This document shows positions 49,542 through 58,477 of a stretch of 64,000 nt of DNA, one piece after another (the stretch's first letter is position 1; each line of letters opens with the position of its first letter). The stretch is from an uncultured Clostridia bacterium (lineage in GTDB: Bacteria; Bacillota; Clostridia; UBA1381), in NCBI GenBank assembly GCA_947624485.1, contig CANQKM010000009.1, forward strand, positions 1 through 64,000. Direction: 5' to 3'. The notes under the pieces were generated by a model. The model did no database searches, was not told where the DNA came from, and saw nothing but the letters and a program-made list of their open reading frames with translations. Both the position numbers and the translations under genes were made by a program.

Positions 49542-51542
49542 ATGGATTTTGTTATAAACGCGGGAACGCGTATAGAGTATGACGGCGCTGACAGCGCGGT
49601 GATCAACGCCGTAAATATGCTGTCGCGCGATATAAAAAAGAAATTTATCGAACCGACGCAAGGCAATATCATAAAACTTGTGCGTGACGCGTCGCTCGGC
49701 GAGGAGGAGTTTACCGTTACAGCCGGCGAAACGATGACAGTCGCCGCGTCGGACAGTCTCGGCTTCGTGTACGGACTGCTTTACATAAGCGAAAAATTCC
49801 TCGGTATACTGCCATTTTGGTTCTGGATGGATCAAAAAATCGAAAAGACGGACGGAATAACGGTAAAAGCGGGTGAGTACAAGTCTGTAAAGCCCGCCGT
49901 AAAGTACCGCGGATGGTTCATAAATGACGAGGTTCTCATAATGAAGTGGGCGGTTGACGGCGACAGCGAGGAGCCGTGGCGTATGGCATTTGAGGCGCTT
50001 CTGCGCTGCGGCGGCAACATGGTAATACCCGGTACTGACAAAAACTCGCGCCTGCACCGCCGCCTTGCCGCCGATATGGGACTGTGGATAACGCATCACC
50101 ACGCCGAACCGCTCGGCGCGGAAATGTTCGCGCGCGCGTACCCCGACCCTAAGCCCAACTACCTCGACTACCCCGACCTTTTCCAAAAGCTGTGGGAGGA
50201 CGCGGTAACCGAGCAGAAGGACGGCAGGACGATATGGTGTCTCGGCTTCCGCGGACAGGGCGACGCGCCGTTCTGGAGCCACGACACGAGCGGTAAATTC
50301 GACACCGACGAGAAGCGCGGCAAAATGATAAGCGATATAATAGAGCTTCAGCGGCGGATAGTGCTTAAACACGTCAAAAACCCCGTTTTCTGCACAAACC
50401 TCTACGGCGAGGTTATGGAGCTGTACGACAAGGGCTGCATAACACTGCCGGAGGACGTTATAAAAATAAGCGCGGACAACGGCTTCGGCAAAATGGTGAC
50501 GCGCCGCCGCGACAATCACACCGCGCGCGTGTCGTCCATGCCGAAGGAGCGGCAGAAAAGCGGCGGAATATATTACCACGTTTCGTTTTACGACCTGCAG
50601 GCGGCGAACCACATCACGATGTTCCCGAACAGCGTTGATTTCGTGGACAGGGAGCTTAGCGAGGTTGCGGAAAAGAACATGACCGACTACTGGCTCGTAA
50701 ACTGCTCGAATGTGCGCCCCCACGCGTATTTTCTCGACGCGGTGCGCAAAAAGTGGATGGGGGAGAGCGTGAGCGGCGAAACGCAAAGTGCGCAGTTCGC
50801 AGCCGATTACTACGGCGGAAACGCGGACGTCGCGGCGGTTTACCGAGATTATCACACAGCTATGATCAAATTCGGCAAACATGAGGACGAGCATGCGGGC
50901 GAGCAGTTTTACAACGATCCGATGCGCGTGGCGGTAAACGCTGTGTTCAAGGGTAAAAGCGACGTGCCGGGACTTAACTGGATTTCCGGCGAGGGTACGA
51001 TACGGGAGCAGGTAAAGAAGTATACCGATTTTGCCGCCGATAATTTGGATAACATTGCCGCGTTCTACGAGCGCTGCAAAAGCGTGAGCGAAAGGCTCAC
51101 GGGTGATGCAAAACGGCTTTTCGATTCGACGATTTTAATGCAGACCGCGATCCACCGCTATTGCACCGAGGGATTAAAGACATTCGGCGAGGGGTACGAG
51201 TACTACGCGGACGGCGACTACAAAAACGCGTTTATGACGTTCGGACGGTGCGCCGAGCTTTACAAAACGGCTAACCGCGTAATGCGCGGAAGCGAGTACG
51301 GCGTGTGGAAGGGCTTTTACTTTAACGACTGCTTCGCCGACATAAAGCACACGGCGTACATGGCTGAAAAAATAATGGGTTTGGCGCGCGAGATGGGCGA
51401 CAGCGCAAGCCACGTGCAGTGGTACCGCGATGCGGTGTACGCGGATGAGGACAGAAAAATAATGACGCTGCTCGTAAACGACAACCACATGACCGATTGG
51501 GAGCTTTACGAGGCGTTTAAGAGAAAGGAAAATGTAAAATGA
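49542..51542 (+). CDS. Glycoside hydrolase family 115 alpha-glucuronidase
   Basis: A 666-aa enzyme without a signal peptide. GH115 signatures: GFVYGLLYISEKFLGILPFW, VKPAVKYRGWFINDE, GTDKNSRLHRRLAADMGLWI, THHHAEPLGAEMFAR, GFRGQGDAPFW and ISADNGFGKMVTRR. GH115 removes (4-O-methyl)glucuronate from xylan side chains. Cytosolic placement implies imported oligosaccharides. Its stop overlaps a fructuronate-reductase gene, linking release of glucuronate to its use. AAAGGGGAT site at the ATG. Confidence 0.9.
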   Translation: MDFVINAGTRIEYDGADSAVINAVNMLSRDIKKKFIEPTQGNIIKLVRDASLGEEEFTVTAGETMTVAASDSLGFVYGLLYISEKFLGILPFWFWMDQKIEKTDGITVKAGEYKSVKPAVKYRGWFINDEVLIMKWAVDGDSEEPWRMAFEALLRCGGNMVIPGTDKNSRLHRRLAADMGLWITHHHAEPLGAEMFARAYPDPKPNYLDYPDLFQKLWEDAVTEQKDGRTIWCLGFRGQGDAPFWSHDTSGKFDTDEKRGKMISDIIELQRRIVLKHVKNPVFCTNLYGEVMELYDKGCITLPEDVIKISADNGFGKMVTRRRDNHTARVSSMPKERQKSGGIYYHVSFYDLQAANHITMFPNSVDFVDRELSEVAEKNMTDYWLVNCSNVRPHAYFLDAVRKKWMGESVSGETQSAQFAADYYGGNADVAAVYRDYHTAMIKFGKHEDEHAGEQFYNDPMRVAVNAVFKGKSDVPGLNWISGEGTIREQVKKYTDFAADNLDNIAAFYERCKSVSERLTGDAKRLFDSTILMQTAIHRYCTEGLKTFGEGYEYYADGDYKNAFMTFGRCAELYKTANRVMRGSEYGVWKGFYFNDCFADIKHTAYMAEKIMGLAREMGDSASHVQWYRDAVYADEDRKIMTLLVNDNHMTDWELYEAFKRKENVK

Positions 51543-53122
51543 AGCTGAATCTGAACGGAATCGCAGACCGCGCGGACTGGGAAAAGGCGGGTATCGCGCT
51601 GCCGCAGTTCGACATAACCGCCGTGCGCAGGCAGACAAAAAATTTCCCCGAATGGGTACATTTCGGCGCGGGAAATATTTTCCGCGGCTTTATCGGCTCG
51701 ATCGCGCAGCGGCTTCTCAATGCGGGCGAGATGAACACGGGCATAATCGCCGCCGAGAGCTTTGACTTTGACATTATCGACAAAATCTACGAGCCTTACG
51801 ACAATCTTACGCTTAACGTCCTCATGGGCAAAAGCTCCGACCTGCACGCCGAGGTGCTTGCGGGCATAGCCGAGGGCGTGAAGGCAGACGATTTCGGGCG
51901 GTTAAAGGAAATAGCCGAAAATCCGTCGCTTAAAATGATAAGCTTCACGATCACCGAAAAGGGCTACGCCGCGTCCGACGTAAACGGCAAACTGCTCCCC
52001 GTGGTGGAGAGCGATATCGCGAACGGTCCCGTGTCGCCGAAGCACACGATGAGCATAATCGCGGCTATGCTGTACGCGCGGTACAAAAGCTGTGAAACGC
52101 CGGTCGCCGTTGTCAGCATGGACAACTGCTCCCACAACGGCGAAAAGCTGCAGGACGGCGTTATGCGCGTCGTGAAGGGCTGGCTCGACAACGGCAGTGT
52201 GGACAACGACTTTGCCGCGTATATGACGCAGAAGGTGTCGTTCCCGTGGAGCATGATCGACAAGATAACGCCGCGCCCCGACGACAGCGTAAAAACGCGC
52301 CTTGAGGAAATGGGCGCGGAGGATATGCAGCCTGTCGTAACGGATAAGGGAACGTATATCGCGCCGTTTGTGAACGCCGAAATACCCGAATACCTCGTGA
52401 TCGAGGACGATTTCCCGAACGGCAGACCGCCGCTCGAAAAGGCGGGCGTGCATATGACGACGCGCGAAACGGTAAACAAGGCGGAGACGATGAAGGTGAC
52501 GACCTGCCTTAACCCCCTGCACACCGCTCTCGCCGTGTTCGGCTGTCTTTTGGGTTACAAGACGATCTGGGAGGAAATGAAGGACAATGACCTTGTAAAG
52601 CTCGTCCGCGCGGTGAGAGAAGAGGGCATGAAGGTCGTTGTGAATCCGGGCATAATCGATCCCGAGAAATTTGCGGACGAGGTCATAAACGACCGTCTCC
52701 CGAACCCGTATATCCCCGACGCGCCGCAGAGGATAGCGACCGACACGTCGCAGAAAATCCCCGTGCGCTACGGTGAGACGATCAAGGCGTACATGGTTTC
52801 GGACGAGCTTGAAGCGTCCGACCTAAACGCGATACCGCTCGTGATAGCGGGCTGGCTTCGCTACGCGCTCGCGGTTGACGACGAGGGCAATGCGTTTACG
52901 CCGTCGCCCGATCCGTCGCTTGCGGACGTGCAGAAGGCGCTCGGCGGCATACGATTGGGCGAGCCGCAGATAGACGATGAGGCACTGAAGCCGATACTCT
53001 CAAACGCAAACCTGTTCGGCGTTGATTTGTACGACGCGGATCTCGGCGGAAAGGTCGAGAACCTGTTCTCGCAGATGCTCGCCGGTACCGGCGCGGTACG
53101 GCTCGCGCTTAAAAATATATAA
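51539..53122 (+). CDS. uxuB: Fructuronate reductase / mannonate oxidoreductase
   Basis: A 527-aa mannitol-dehydrogenase-family enzyme. The N-terminal FGAGNIFRGFIGSIAQRLLN is the NAD-binding part, VVSMDNCSHNGEKLQDGV and TPRPDDSVKTRLE are typical of UxuB, and KVTTCLNPLHTALAVFG holds the catalytic region. It would reduce D-fructuronate to D-mannonate. Translated with GH115 (ATGA overlap). UxuA and UxaC are not in the window. Confidence 0.9.
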   Translation: MKLNLNGIADRADWEKAGIALPQFDITAVRRQTKNFPEWVHFGAGNIFRGFIGSIAQRLLNAGEMNTGIIAAESFDFDIIDKIYEPYDNLTLNVLMGKSSDLHAEVLAGIAEGVKADDFGRLKEIAENPSLKMISFTITEKGYAASDVNGKLLPVVESDIANGPVSPKHTMSIIAAMLYARYKSCETPVAVVSMDNCSHNGEKLQDGVMRVVKGWLDNGSVDNDFAAYMTQKVSFPWSMIDKITPRPDDSVKTRLEEMGAEDMQPVVTDKGTYIAPFVNAEIPEYLVIEDDFPNGRPPLEKAGVHMTTRETVNKAETMKVTTCLNPLHTALAVFGCLLGYKTIWEEMKDNDLVKLVRAVREEGMKVVVNPGIIDPEKFADEVINDRLPNPYIPDAPQRIATDTSQKIPVRYGETIKAYMVSDELEASDLNAIPLVIAGWLRYALAVDDEGNAFTPSPDPSLADVQKALGGIRLGEPQIDDEALKPILSNANLFGVDLYDADLGGKVENLFSQMLAGTGAVRLALKNI

Positions 53123-53124
53123 AT

Positions 53125-53155
53125 CAAAAACCGACGCTTTTAAGCGTCGGTTTTT
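53125..53155. terminator. Bidirectional terminator, uxuB / AbrB-like gene
   Basis: AAAACCGACGCTT / AAGCGTCGGTTTT hairpin between convergent genes. Confidence 0.88.
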
Positions 53156-53402
53156 ACATATTCGCCGCATTTTTCACAGCGGCGAGGCATTTTTTGCACA
53201 TAAATCTTCCGTTTCCGATTTCCGTCACCTTGTCGCTGCCGCCGCACACAAAGCAAACATTGCCGCTTTTGCGCAGCACAACGGCGTTTCCGTTTTTCAC
53301 CGCTTTAACCTCATCACCGTCACTGAGTCCGAGCATACTGATAAGCTCTTCGCCGAGACCTTCGATTACGTTTTTTCTTACATTAAAAATTTTTTCGGAC
53401 AT
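53154..53402 (-). CDS. AbrB-like protein with zinc ribbon
   Basis: An 82-aa protein. N-terminal ~45 residues (VIEGLGEELISMLGLSDGDE, VKAVKNGNAVVLRKS) have the SpoVT/AbrB swapped-hairpin style. A C-terminal zinc ribbon follows (CFVCGG...CKKC). GGGAGG fits the ATG at 53402; a longer frame would run into the adjacent RNA. Possible transition-state-type regulator. It lies directly downstream of two noncoding RNA units on the same strand. Confidence 0.75.
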   Translation of the reverse strand: MSEKIFNVRKNVIEGLGEELISMLGLSDGDEVKAVKNGNAVVLRKSGNVCFVCGGSDKVTEIGNGRFMCKKCLAAVKNAANM

Positions 53403-53433
53403 GTTTTTTACCTCCCATAGATACAGTTTTAAA

Positions 53434-53609
53434 TAAAAAATGCGCCGCAAAGCGACGCACAAAAAACGCCGCTTATATATATTTAATTGTATTGCGGTAC
53501 AACTCAATAATGGTTACAACGGTACACGATAAAAAACGCTGTCCAAAAAGCGGACGTTTTTTACATGGTAATAACCCGTTGTGACCACTATTAAATTATT
53601 GTACCGCAA
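53434..53609 (-). ncRNA. Structured noncoding RNA B
   Basis: Predicted ~175-nt transcript. Promoter -35 TTTACA (53638-53643), 17-bp spacer, -10 TATAAT (53615-53620). The 5' ATTGCGGTACAA pairs with the 3' TTGTACCGCAAT. AATAGTGGTCACAACGG pairs with CCGTTGTAACCATTATT next, and AAAAAACG...CGTTTTTT plus GTCC/GGAC close the top. The result is one long rod. The end is a TGCGtCGCtttGCGGCGCA hairpin plus T6. It shares its layout and the TGTAAAAAACGT motif with RNA A. Confidence 0.6.
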
Positions 53610-53614
53610 TCCTT

Positions 53615-53643
53615 ATTATATCATATTTACCGCCGGTTGTAAA
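53615..53643 (-). promoter_or_regulatory. Promoter of ncRNA B
   Basis: TTTACA, 17-bp spacer, TATAAT on the minus strand, just after the terminator of ncRNA A. Confidence 0.7.
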
Positions 53644-53651
53644 TACAAAAT

Positions 53652-53799
53652 AAAAAAAATGCGCCGCATCGCGGCGCATAAAAACGCCGCCTTTTGCTGC
53701 AACACAAATCAATACCCGCAAAGCGCGAATTATTAAGGCATACGTTTTTTTACAGTGTATGCGCTTTTGGGCAAAAATATACAGAGATTTGTGTTGCCC
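53652..53799 (-). ncRNA. Structured noncoding RNA A
   Basis: Predicted ~147-nt transcript. Perfect promoter TTGACA-17-TATAAT (53804-53832). The 5' GGCAACACAAATC pairs with the 3' GATTTGTGTTGC, then GCCCAAAAGCGC pairs with GCGCTTTGCGGG, then a GCATAC / GTATGC apex encloses TGTAAAAAAACGT. The tail is a TGCGCCGC-gat-GCGGCGCA terminator plus T8. There is no ribosome-binding site or convincing frame. The closed rod with internal loops resembles 6S-type RNAs in shape, not in recognised sequence. Confidence 0.6.
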
Positions 53800-53803
53800 A
53801 ATT

Positions 53804-53832
53804 ATTATACCATTGAAGCCGTTATTTGTCAA
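53804..53832 (-). promoter_or_regulatory. Promoter of ncRNA A
   Basis: Exact TTGACA and TATAAT with a 17-bp spacer on the minus strand. Confidence 0.8.
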
Positions 53833-53939
53833 TTTATACTATAATAAGTCGCCAAATTTTACATATATAATAATTGAAAAATGTGCGGAGCGGTGGTATA
53901 ATCTAATTATCTACAAGAAATTTCAAGGAGGATAATTCG

Positions 53940-55676
53940 ATGGGTTACAAGGAAACATATAACCGCTGGCTTACGAGCGACGTCGTTGACGACGACACAA
54001 AGGCGGAGCTTCGCGCCATTGCGGACAACGAAAAGGAGATAGAGGAGCGTTTTTACCGCGACCTTGAGTTCGGTACGGCTGGTATGAGAGGCATACTCGG
54101 CGCGGGTACGAACAGACTGAACATCTACAACGTGCGCCAGGCGAGCCAGGGCGTCGCGAAGTATGTTAAGTCGAGAGGCGAGGACGCGGCGAAGGCGGGC
54201 GTGCTTATCGGCTACGACACGCGTAATTTCTCGCGCGTGTTCGCGGAGGAAACGGCTAAGGTTCTGACCGCGGCGGGCGTTAAGGCGTATTTGTTCCCGA
54301 TAGTACATTCCGTGCCGGAGGTTTCGTTCGGCATAAGAGAATTGGGCTGTGCGGCTGGCGTTATGATTACCGCAAGCCACAACCCGAAGGAGTACAACGG
54401 CTACAAGGTTTACGGTCCGGACGGCGGACAGCTTCCGCCCGACGCGGCTGACGTTGTTGTGGCGGCGATAAACAGCTACGACATATTCGACGATGTAAAG
54501 TATATCCCGCTCGACGAGGCGAAGGAAAAGGGACTGCTCGAAATTCCGGGCAGCGAGCTTGACGAGAAATTTCTCGACGTTGTGCAGACGCAGCAGCAGA
54601 ACCCCGAGGCGGTCAAGGCTGTTGCCGACACGTTTAAGCTCATATACACGCCGCTCCACGGCACGGGTTCGCGTCCGGTACAGGCTATCTTAAAGCGCAT
54701 AGGCTTCAAAAACGTGCTTGTCGTTAAGGAGCAGGATACCGAGGACGGCAATTTCTCGACGGTCGTTTCGCCGAACCCCGAAAACAAAGAGGCGTTCGAC
54801 ATCGCTATCGAAATGGCGAAGCAGAACGACGTTGACGTTATCATAGGCACAGATCCCGACTGCGACCGCGTGGGTATCGTTGTCCGCGACGCGGACGGCG
54901 TTTACAGAACGCTCACCGGTAACCAGACGGGCGCGCTGCTCGTTGAGTATATTCTCCGTTCAAAGAAGGAAAAGGGCGTTCTCCCCGCCGACGGCGTTGT
55001 TATAAAGACAATCGTTACGACCGAGCTTGCGGCTGCGATCGCCGAGAGCTACGGCGTGGAGGTTATGAATGTTCTCACCGGCTTTAAGTACATCGGCGAG
55101 AAAATGACCGAGTTTGCCGAGAAGAAGAACCATACGTACCTCATCGGTTTTGAGGAAAGCTACGGCTACCTCGTCGGCACGCACGCGCGCGATAAGGACG
55201 GCGTTGTCGCGACAATGCTTATCGCGGAAATGGCGGCGTACTATAAGACAAAGGGCATGTCGCTTTACGAGGCGCTTATGGACGTGTACAAGAGATACGG
55301 CTATTACGCCGAAAAGACCGTTTCGTTCACGATGCCCGGCAAGGACGGCATGGAGAAAATGGCTGCGCTGCTTAAGGGCCTGCGCGAAAATCCGCCCGTA
55401 AAGGCTGCCGGTATGGATATTGTGCTTTACACCGATTACCAGTCGCAGACGGTCAAGGACACAAAGGGCAATGTTAAGCCGCTTACGGGACTGCCCAAGT
55501 CAAACGTGCTGAAGTACAACCTGTCGGATGATAAGACGTATTTCATCGTTCGTCCGTCGGGTACGGAGCCGAAGATCAAGATTTATCTCGGCACGTTCGC
55601 CGAGAGCTTCGAGGCTGCGACCGCGGAGATAGAGAAGGTTCTCGCAGATTGTAAGGAGCAGTTTGGACTTAATTGA
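53940..55676 (+). CDS. Phosphoglucomutase/phosphomannomutase (PgcA-like)
   Basis: A 578-aa alpha-D-phosphohexomutase interconverting hexose 1- and 6-phosphates. Motifs are FGTAGMRGILGAGTNRLNIY, the catalytic phosphoserine loop TASHNPKEYNGYKVYGPDGG, the magnesium loop GTDPDCDRVGI, sugar-binding GFEESYGYLVG and the phosphate loop RPSGTEPKIKIYLG. AAGGAGG precedes the ATG. The long form matches PgcA of Firmicutes. It is divergent from the ncRNA pair. Confidence 0.95.
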   Translation: MGYKETYNRWLTSDVVDDDTKAELRAIADNEKEIEERFYRDLEFGTAGMRGILGAGTNRLNIYNVRQASQGVAKYVKSRGEDAAKAGVLIGYDTRNFSRVFAEETAKVLTAAGVKAYLFPIVHSVPEVSFGIRELGCAAGVMITASHNPKEYNGYKVYGPDGGQLPPDAADVVVAAINSYDIFDDVKYIPLDEAKEKGLLEIPGSELDEKFLDVVQTQQQNPEAVKAVADTFKLIYTPLHGTGSRPVQAILKRIGFKNVLVVKEQDTEDGNFSTVVSPNPENKEAFDIAIEMAKQNDVDVIIGTDPDCDRVGIVVRDADGVYRTLTGNQTGALLVEYILRSKKEKGVLPADGVVIKTIVTTELAAAIAESYGVEVMNVLTGFKYIGEKMTEFAEKKNHTYLIGFEESYGYLVGTHARDKDGVVATMLIAEMAAYYKTKGMSLYEALMDVYKRYGYYAEKTVSFTMPGKDGMEKMAALLKGLRENPPVKAAGMDIVLYTDYQSQTVKDTKGNVKPLTGLPKSNVLKYNLSDDKTYFIVRPSGTEPKIKIYLGTFAESFEAATAEIEKVLADCKEQFGLN

Positions 55677-57047: not shown

Positions 57048-57154
57048 ACATTCAGCGTCAAGGAAAAACGCAGAGAAACACATTCACACGGATAACCAAA
57101 CACAATGCGAACGTATAGGAAACATCTTTGGAATTGAGAAGGAGAGATTTTATC

Positions 57155-58477
57155 TTGAATATTACGAAAAAGATTATCTTATCTGTTATATCTATGTCAG
57201 CGGTGCTTGGCACGTCGGCTCTGGCGGCTGATTTAAGCGGCTGGGCGATATCCGATTATCAGCAGGCCAATGAGGCGGGACTTGTATCGTATTCGGTTGT
57301 ATCGAATAATCTTCATGACAGTATAACGCGTGAGGAATTTTGCGAGCTTGCTGTAAATCTGTACGAAAAGCTTACGGGAGAAGATATGGTTGAACCTCCG
57401 GTATCGCCGTTTACCGATACCGATTCCGTAGCGGTATCGCAGGCTTACGCCTACGGTATTGTTTCGGGTACGGGCGACGGAACGTTTACTCCCGACAGAC
57501 TTGTAAGAAGAGAGGAAATGGCAACGATGCTCGTAAGCACGCTTACGGCGAGCGAGGTTTCCTTTAACCTTTCGGACGGATATGAGGACGCGTACGTAAT
57601 CGACGCGTTCGCCGACTCGGACGAGGTCAGCTCTTGGGCTAAGCCTTCGGTCATTACAATGATAAACTACTCATTGATGAACGGGGTTGACGGCGAAAAT
57701 TTCGCACCCCTCGGTTCGACGACAAGAGAACAGGCAATATCGAGTATCAACCGTTTATACAATAAGTTCAGCGACACCGATTACACGCTTGCTCTTCCGG
57801 AAATAACGCTTCCCGAGGACGGAGCCGAAATCGAGGAGGGTGACTTCTCGGTAGCATGGACGCCGATAGACAGCGCGTGGGCGTATCACGTAATCATTAA
57901 GGACGCGGACGCCGACTCGGTACTTCTTTCGGATGTATACGACGAGAACAGCGTTACAATAGAAGGCGCTTCACTCGTGGTTGACAGAGATTATTCGATA
58001 ACGGTAGGCGCGGTGCTTTCGGACGGCAGCGAGGTTTACAGCCTCCCCGTAGACTTCAAATATAAGTCAAAGGCTCCGCTTGCAAATGAAGAGTACATAG
58101 CAGAGAATCCCATTGCGGGCAATTTGATCGATACTGCTGACGACTATCTCGGCGTACCGTACGTATGGGGCGGCACAAGTCCTTCGGGATTTGACTGCTC
58201 GGGCTTGGTGCAGTATGTATGCAGCTTAAACGGTATTTCGATACCGAGAGTGGCTGACGACCAGCTTCACGGACCGGGAACTTATGTGTCAAGAGCTCAG
58301 CTTGAACCAGGCGACCTCGTGTTCTTCGGCAGCGGCGACTACGCTTCACACGTTGGTATGTACGTGGGCGACGGCATGATGATCCACGCTCCCCACACCG
58401 GCGACGTTGTCAGATACACGTCGATCGACTCGTCTTACTATCAGTCAAGATTTTTGGGCGGTAAAAGGGTAATTTGA
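57155..58477 (+). CDS. SLH-domain NlpC/P60 endopeptidase
   Basis: A 440-aa exported cell-wall enzyme. Signal peptide MNITKKIILSVISMSAVLGT ends near ALAAD. SLH repeats follow at about 30-200 (FTDTDSVAVSQAYAYGIVSG, GTFTPDRLVRREEMATML). A Fn3-like linker is at about 220-310. The NlpC/P60 domain occupies the last 120 residues: catalytic Cys in SGFDCSGLVQYV, His in SHVGMYVGDG and the third polar residue in MIHAPHTGD. The TTG start at 57155 has GAAGGAGA upstream. It would anchor to the S-layer/wall and cut stem peptides. Confidence 0.92.
   Translation: MNITKKIILSVISMSAVLGTSALAADLSGWAISDYQQANEAGLVSYSVVSNNLHDSITREEFCELAVNLYEKLTGEDMVEPPVSPFTDTDSVAVSQAYAYGIVSGTGDGTFTPDRLVRREEMATMLVSTLTASEVSFNLSDGYEDAYVIDAFADSDEVSSWAKPSVITMINYSLMNGVDGENFAPLGSTTREQAISSINRLYNKFSDTDYTLALPEITLPEDGAEIEEGDFSVAWTPIDSAWAYHVIIKDADADSVLLSDVYDENSVTIEGASLVVDRDYSITVGAVLSDGSEVYSLPVDFKYKSKAPLANEEYIAENPIAGNLIDTADDYLGVPYVWGGTSPSGFDCSGLVQYVCSLNGISIPRVADDQLHGPGTYVSRAQLEPGDLVFFGSGDYASHVGMYVGDGMMIHAPHTGDVVRYTSIDSSYYQSRFLGGKRVI

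Follow-up and report, generated by a model that had tools for sequence, protein, structure and literature searches.

Attenuators of the trp type are built from strands that pair alternatively as 1:2, 2:3, and 3:4, and the ZTP and fluoride riboswitches combine a pseudoknot with a terminator. Two RNAs of Listeria bear comparison with the RNAs studied here: LhrC is described as an sRNA regulating an adhesin (PMC4132741), and Rli51 is a 5'UTR attenuator also reported to act in trans (PMC11394854). Multicopy hairpin motifs such as MRSC-65-2 have been proposed to be mobile or selfish repeats (PMC11109978).

The window considered here, i.e., the whole stretch of 64,000 nucleotides, contains on the minus strand of 53434-53832 two consecutive units, U1 (~53797-53652) and U2 (~53609-53435), whose features are listed in Table 1. 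We read them as members of a family of transcription-attenuator modules, to which we assign a probability of about 0.64, and the module possibly has a second role in trans.

The preliminary description of this locus had proposed two homologous rod-shaped RNAs with their own promoters and terminators, and most of this holds. The sigma-70 promoters, with a spacing of 17, match the consensus in 12 of 12 (U1) and 11 of 12 (U2) positions, TG preceding both -10 hexamers, and the U1 transcript is expected to start near 53797; promoter-like sites are frequent in the 1.8 kb scanned (eight, vs. 2.2 expected from shuffles). Bodies of about 100-120 nt with complementary ends are recovered as P1 helices spanning 99 nt in U1 and 118 nt in U2, and each unit has the terminator assigned to it, formed by segments B and C. 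The internal motif is present as TGTAAAAAAACGT in U1 and TGTAAAAAACGT in U2, but the U1 copy has one A more than had been claimed. Homology of the units is confirmed by a single covariance model that matches both, with 103.2 bits for U1, which was in the training set, and 69.6 bits for U2, which was not. Compared with 200 dinucleotide shuffles, the folding z-score is -2.47 for U1 (one shuffle equally stable) and -6.76 for U2 (none equally stable). The minimum-energy fold contains the A:B hairpin in U1 and the terminator in U2; in U2, the predicted fold takes up X in a small additional hairpin and so varies from the layout typical of the family. Four things had escaped the earlier reading: a second hairpin, A:B, as competitor of each terminator; X:A pairing; a gene starting 32 nt behind U2; and the existence of a multicopy family.

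Table 1. Features of the two RNA units and the gene that follows them (window coordinates).
Feature	Position	Strand	Basis
U1 -35 hexamer TTGACA	53827..53832	-	promoter scan
U1 -10 hexamer TATAAT, TG before	53804..53809	-	promoter scan
U1 P1 5' strand GCAACACAAATC	53786..53797	-	predicted fold; P1 covariation
U1 apical hairpin P3 with conserved GTAAAAAAACGT	53739..53761	-	predicted fold
U1 segment X UGCCUU, P3 end and start of 3' bulge, complementary to A	53735..53740	-	family-wide covariation
U1 P1 3' strand GATTTGTGTTGC	53699..53710	-	predicted fold
U1 segment A AAGGCGGCG, partner X or B	53685..53693	-	covariation
U1 segment B TGCGCCGC, partner A (antiterminator) or C (terminator)	53671..53678	-	fold, covariation
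U1 segment C GCGGCGCA, terminator 3' arm	53660..53667	-	terminator scan
U1 terminator T-run	53652..53659	-	terminator scan
U2 -35 hexamer TTTACA	53638..53643	-	promoter scan
U2 -10 hexamer TATAAT, TG before	53615..53620	-	promoter scan
U2 P1 5' strand TTGCGGTACAA	53599..53609	-	predicted fold
U2 segment X CCGCUU	53548..53553	-	predicted fold
U2 P1 3' strand TTGTACCGCAA	53492..53502	-	predicted fold
U2 segment A AAGCGGCG	53467..53474	-	segment assignment
U2 segment B TGCGTCGC	53452..53459	-	segment assignment
U2 segment C GCGGCGCA, terminator 3' arm	53441..53448	-	segment assignment
U2 terminator T-run	53435..53440	-	terminator scan
Shine-Dalgarno of AbrB/MazE-like gene, 18 nt behind U2 T-run	53411..53416	-	
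82-aa AbrB/MazE-like protein, two CxxC pairs	53154..53402	-	below-cut-off domain matches

The surroundings of the locus include a divergent promoter-like site TTGAAA-17-TATAAT (53874-53902, plus strand), 42 bp from the U1 -35 hexamer and before a phosphoglucomutase gene (53940-55676), and a strong hairpin terminator-like site (53125-53156) between the convergent mannitol-dehydrogenase-like and AbrB-like genes. A GH115 glycoside hydrolase followed by a mannitol-dehydrogenase-family oxidoreductase (49542-53122) is perhaps a sugar-use operon, and an SLH plus NlpC/P60 protein (57128-58477) is likely a cell-wall hydrolase.

No Rfam 15 family matches the U1/U2 region, as the preliminary description had presumed. 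Only tRNAs reach a gathering score in the window, and a permissive search of the region yields 17 matches up to E 10, all far below cut-offs (e.g., GcvB, MIR8007), so that these and other known Rfam families were rejected as the identity of the RNAs. Applied to 20 further member loci, the permissive search returned a tRNA and two below-cut-off matches. In the part of the literature covered by our searches no description of this RNA was found, and the family is apparently undescribed.

By BLAST, the full stretch of the two units occurs in a single place of its own genome, and DNA search of 61 genomes (own plus 60 relatives) finds near copies in G011 (92% identity) and G005 (91%), together with many further weak matches, mostly to the terminator part and some to the promoter. 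Most of these weakly matching loci hold a full unit with promoter, rod, apical GTAAAAA-type motif, and terminator, and four (L010, L011, L016, L021) share a similar promoter only. The covariance model R1, built from 16 units and encoding only the P1 and terminator pairs, has 16 matches in the own genome at E<=0.1 (15 at E<=1e-3), i.e., 14 strongly diverged copies at E<=0.1 beyond U1 and U2. Since the best 15 candidates per genome were scored among 199 genomes (own plus relatives) and the best seven in the class and phylum searches, with strict filters, the following counts are lower bounds: R1 matches are present in at least 102 of the 199 genomes (E<=1e-3), with up to at least 15 per genome, in at least 90 of 391 genomes and at least 53 of 222 genera of the class (E<=1e-6), and in at least one of 398 genomes of a phylum sample, namely, the window's own (E<=1e-6).

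From 160 matches, 157 units remained without exact duplicates, 156 by segment, and 154 after removal of two weak reverse-strand matches, L118:1621-1773:+ (spurious) and L121:308-437:-; both are still inside the 157- and 156-unit counts on promoters, genes, classes, and energies, and neither is among the 78 leaders considered below. As matches were fetched by best score, the units are not a random sample. In a phage collection, one unit (L049) matches two "Bacteriophage sp." fecal scaffolds marked UNVERIFIED, each holding a full unit by the covariance model, and a plasmid search with one unit (L013) gave no match. A phage origin was not adopted: one narrow pattern searched against viral_contigs retrieved only L159, a tRNA plus terminator without a model match, which is weak evidence.

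Most units have a promoter of their own. At least nine of 12 consensus positions are matched in 133 of 157 units, vs. a mean of 24 in mononucleotide-shuffled upstream regions, and among these 133 the spacing is 17 in 126, TG is present in 129, and the distance from the -10 hexamer to the unit is 4 nt in 112. The predicted 5' end of the RNA lies in P1.

In the minimum-energy folds of the rods, P1 has a median length of 14 bp and P2 one of 13 bp (143 of 154 units). The bulges are less regular: 94 of 154 folds show a 3' loop of 13-18 nt, and 83 of 154 a 5' bulge of 4 nt or more. Unpaired letters are conserved as well, namely, AUA in the 5' part (90-96%) and AAAA in the apical loop (90-100%), and the U-run between A and B is invariant at three columns, plus a fourth where present. 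The claim that stems change in sequence while pairing is kept, and the suggestion to look for covariation among relatives, are borne out across the family: in 89 distinct aligned units, 97.4% of the cells of P1 and the terminator pair, 16 of 19 pairs show double-sided changes, and the covariation score of 0.552 exceeds those of shuffled (0.221) and slid partners (0.103 at most), in an alignment that was fitted to this structure and leans toward it. The lengths of P1 and P2 are negatively related (rho -0.38 in 143 rods), the sign coming at least partly from folds in which P1 and P2 are merged, so that folding back of the rod at the 5' bulge is unsupported.

Behind the rod, segment A is complementary both to X in the rod bulge and to the terminator arm B, which gives three alternative helices, X:A, A:B, and B:C. 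When the duplex energies within each of 156 units were set against those obtained after dealing the segments out among the units, all three covaried (z-scores -17.8, -15.4, and -27.5, respectively), the control pairs X:B, X:C, and A:C giving 0.2, -1.5, and 0.6. A repeat of the test yielded -17.1, -18.4, and -29.9, with controls of 0.4, -2.1, and 0.7. Shuffling within genomes, which removes lineage differences, retained the signal in 101 units from 19 genomes (X:A -10.4, A:B -9.6, B:C -10.7; none of 500 shuffles reached the value; controls X:B 0.8, A:C 2.0, X:C -1.5). In the own genome, X:A averages -10.85 kcal/mol for matched and -7.46 for unmatched segments, and the own A is the best partner for only three of 16 X segments. 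Column-wise covariation of X:A in the alignment is blurred by register shifts between subfamilies. X:A would form a pseudoknot across the rod.

As A:B excludes both X:A and B:C, two alternative 3' structures result, {X:A, B:C} and {A:B}. The A:B and B:C hairpins are nearly isoenergetic: the median energies are -13.65 kcal/mol for A:B and -14.4 kcal/mol for B:C, the median difference between A:B and B:C is -0.9 kcal/mol (quartiles -3.1 to 1.4), and in the window it is -1.1 for U1 and -0.6 kcal/mol for U2. An antiterminator that is mutually exclusive with the terminator, covariation of all three helices, and similar energies of A:B and B:C argue for the logic of an attenuator.

An attenuator is also expected to place its intrinsic terminator before a co-directional gene, and this is observed in approximately half of the units. 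A Shine-Dalgarno sequence and a start codon follow 12-75 nt behind 78 of 157 units, 65 of these at 12-39 nt; in a stricter count, with the two spurious matches removed and enough flank, the numbers are 79 of 151, vs. 12 of 149 at the mirrored upstream position. At such distances another promoter would hardly fit in between, and hence read-through is the likely route of expression of these genes. Their products are diverse and do not indicate a single ligand. Signal-peptide-like starts are found in 32 of the 78 downstream ORFs vs. 47 of 379 other ORFs, by a home-made signal-peptide rule, ORF caller, and gene classes; L017, L031 (apparently wrong frame), and L158 (36 aa) are doubtful among the 78. 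In a Pfam scan of 65 of the 78 proteins, BspA-like LRR (12), copper-amine-oxidase-N (four), CHAP (three), ABC (three), and SLH (one) were found.

The downstream families recur across genomes. A YEEMY-type small family follows 11 units in seven genomes, and 38-64 aa proteins of this kind (xxYEEMYxxLFNxITDxIEEL-like) are seen at L013, L050, L058, L060, L067, L075, L076, and L078; the two tested have no Pfam family above cut-off. Similarly, a Cys-rich DVTGI-type family follows seven units in three genomes, with 61-83 aa proteins (xxIDVTGIxLTPGNxGKDC-like) at L046, L088, L090, L118, L145, and L152, the one tested having no Pfam or NCBIfam match.

In the window, the start codon of the AbrB/MazE-like gene lies 32 nt behind U2, and its expression would come from polymerase passing the U2 terminator. 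Its domain matches are below curated cut-offs, and the CxxC..CxxC pattern is invariant in five relatives. The RNA also precedes the closest relatives in G003, G005, G011, G109, and G143, and a tandem pair of units stands before the gene in the own genome (G000), G003, G005, G011, and G143. AbrB/CxxC relatives are present in 145 of 199 genomes; among 30 loci searched, the RNA was found only at the six of the closest subfamily; L098 has one too, and in G013:C18 a unit is situated behind an AbrB/CxxC-type gene. The AbrB/CxxC protein was therefore set aside as a general partner and taken as one target among others. In G008 (L010 1400-1600 vs. L004 1440-2300, compared by eye), a stretch like the U1 -35 region adjoins one that resembles the promoter behind the AbrB gene of G011, and thus the entire cassette of U1, U2, and gene may be absent from G008. 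A small gene follows (MSDT...), whose G008 form has no Pfam match.

Read together, the helices, their covariation, the promoters, and the orientation relative to genes found in the sequences suggest the following mechanism. RNA polymerase would start at the built-in promoter of a unit, and the transcript would fold into a rod composed of P1 (~14 bp), a 5' bulge in many units, P2 (~13 bp), the 3' bulge with X, and the hairpin P3, with A, B, and C coming behind it. With A held by X, the B:C terminator would form and only an RNA of ~150-180 nt would be released; with A free, A:B would form, the terminator would not, and polymerase would continue into the gene behind, which in the window is the AbrB/MazE-like one. 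A condition acting on the rod, such as a ligand, protein, ion, or other RNA, would set the ratio of the outcomes; termination would thereby be regulated, with one of the two structures presumably the default state. In the window, a single gene would then be preceded by two consecutive modules, both equipped with a promoter.

Several observations speak against a purely cis-acting attenuator. In 32 of 157 units (one, L118:1621-1773:+, spurious), the next ORF of at least 70 aa is convergent, at a distance of 33 to 1281 nt, and 17 of 157 units lie upstream of another unit. Covariation persists in the convergent class for both X:A (z -8.2) and A:B (z -8.7), unneeded for a purely cis role, with matched energies like those of the leaders. 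Other points that weigh against the attenuator reading are the diversity of the downstream genes, the fixed promoter distance, the predicted pseudoknot, the small number of X segments that pair best with their own A, and the doubtful ORFs among the 78. Two aligned convergent pairs, apparently orthologous between species, retain 42 of 43 rod pairs, two by double change and one in a gap (L086/L104), and 35 of 35 (L143/L146), and alignment of the window U2 with a G005 unit shows 44 of 46 kept. From these alignments and the covariation of the convergent class it follows that the switch is kept, at least sometimes, without an adjacent gene, which makes a role in trans possible. Such units either act in trans, or control antisense or more distant transcripts, or are recent arrivals.

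The same facts could be explained by stand-alone multicopy sRNAs acting in trans, LhrC-like, for which the choice between A:B and B:C would be a matter of their own fold and the downstream genes incidental or leaky. Own promoter at a fixed distance, 5' end in P1, terminator, and several copies all fit this explanation, as do the units preceding other units, the switch kept where no co-directional gene follows, and the convergent pairs with conserved rods; but the units are strongly biased to face gene starts that lie 12-75 nt behind them, and this and the enrichment of signal-peptide-like products there speak against it, and other aligned pairs have broken rod pairs (nine of 35 in L129/L135; six of 41, with 15 in gaps, in L008/L105). 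We regard it as unlikely. A broader extension of the attenuator reading, still more doubtful, is a clade-wide regulatory layer. Each genome would have a dozen or more portable cassettes of promoter plus switch that control how far transcription reads into genes for surface and small proteins; the terminated RNAs would in addition act on one another, since an X can also pair with the A of a different copy, and would thus make up an RNA network that needs no protein regulator.

We find it improbable that the units are mobile or selfish MITE-like repeats whose inverted ends fold. There are several copies per genome, in two orientations relative to genes, and some share flanks (L086, L131, L140, L150 in G049; L007, L105, L026 in G001). 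The preliminary description had itself raised transposon ends scattered through the genome, and the copies are indeed scattered, but those of the same genome have diverged with pairing kept, conservation extends past the inverted ends to the promoter and A/B/C, and orientation depends on genes (79/151 vs. 12/149). An unregulated leader with a strong terminator, insulating against promoter noise, would agree with the terminator-like site in both window units, but it does not need X:A and A:B, which covary within genomes about as strongly as B:C, and thus has very little in its favor. A 6S-like RNA binding RNA polymerase by open-promoter mimicry, the likeness drawn originally from the rod shape and terminal stem, is scarcely credible, as RF00013 is absent from the 17 matches of the region at E<=10, the genome has a canonical 6S RNA elsewhere (G000:C2:195409, 68 bits), and the many diverged copies and the association with downstream genes do not suit it.

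The interest of the attenuator module lies in that a family found in at least 90 of 391 class genomes, with three covarying alternative helices, has no Rfam 15 match and precedes surface proteins and small uncharacterized proteins of Clostridia. The signal of this orphan switch can be searched for directly, and one and the same RNA possibly acts both in cis and in trans. A promoter-bearing multicopy attenuator with a pseudoknot-controlled platform was not found in the literature searched, including passages of PMC11109978, PMC8632094, and PMC8040213.

Among the known systems, 6S RNA (RF00013) shares the rod with bulges and the paired 5' and 3' ends, whereas the window RNAs lack a match to its covariance model. 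The ZTP and fluoride riboswitches resemble the family in a structured 5' domain, conserved unpaired letters, a terminator/antiterminator platform, and tandem copies; unlike them, the family has heterogeneous downstream genes and strongly variable stems, is only a candidate ligand binder, and its window units match no riboswitch class in Rfam 15. A promoter at a constant distance of 4 nt is, to our knowledge, not typical of riboswitches. With the trp-type attenuators, the family shares four segments, the same exclusion logic (X:A plus B:C vs. A:B), and an intrinsic terminator followed by a gene; in contrast, its strand 1 is part of a bulge within a long rod and would pair with A in a pseudoknot, it has its own promoter at a fixed distance and many copies per genome, and no leader peptide was noticed in an unsystematic look. 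LhrC similarly has several homologous copies and a connection to surface functions, whereas approximately half of the units studied here directly precede a gene and the units carry a switch (PMC4132741). Rli51, likened by description and not by sequence, is one RNA of one gene, but it is reported to work as an attenuator and in trans as well, and such a double role thus has a precedent (PMC11394854). The attenuator logic itself is known, and what appears to be new, judged by the literature searched, is its combination with an own promoter, many and often tandem copies, and a pseudoknot-controlled platform.
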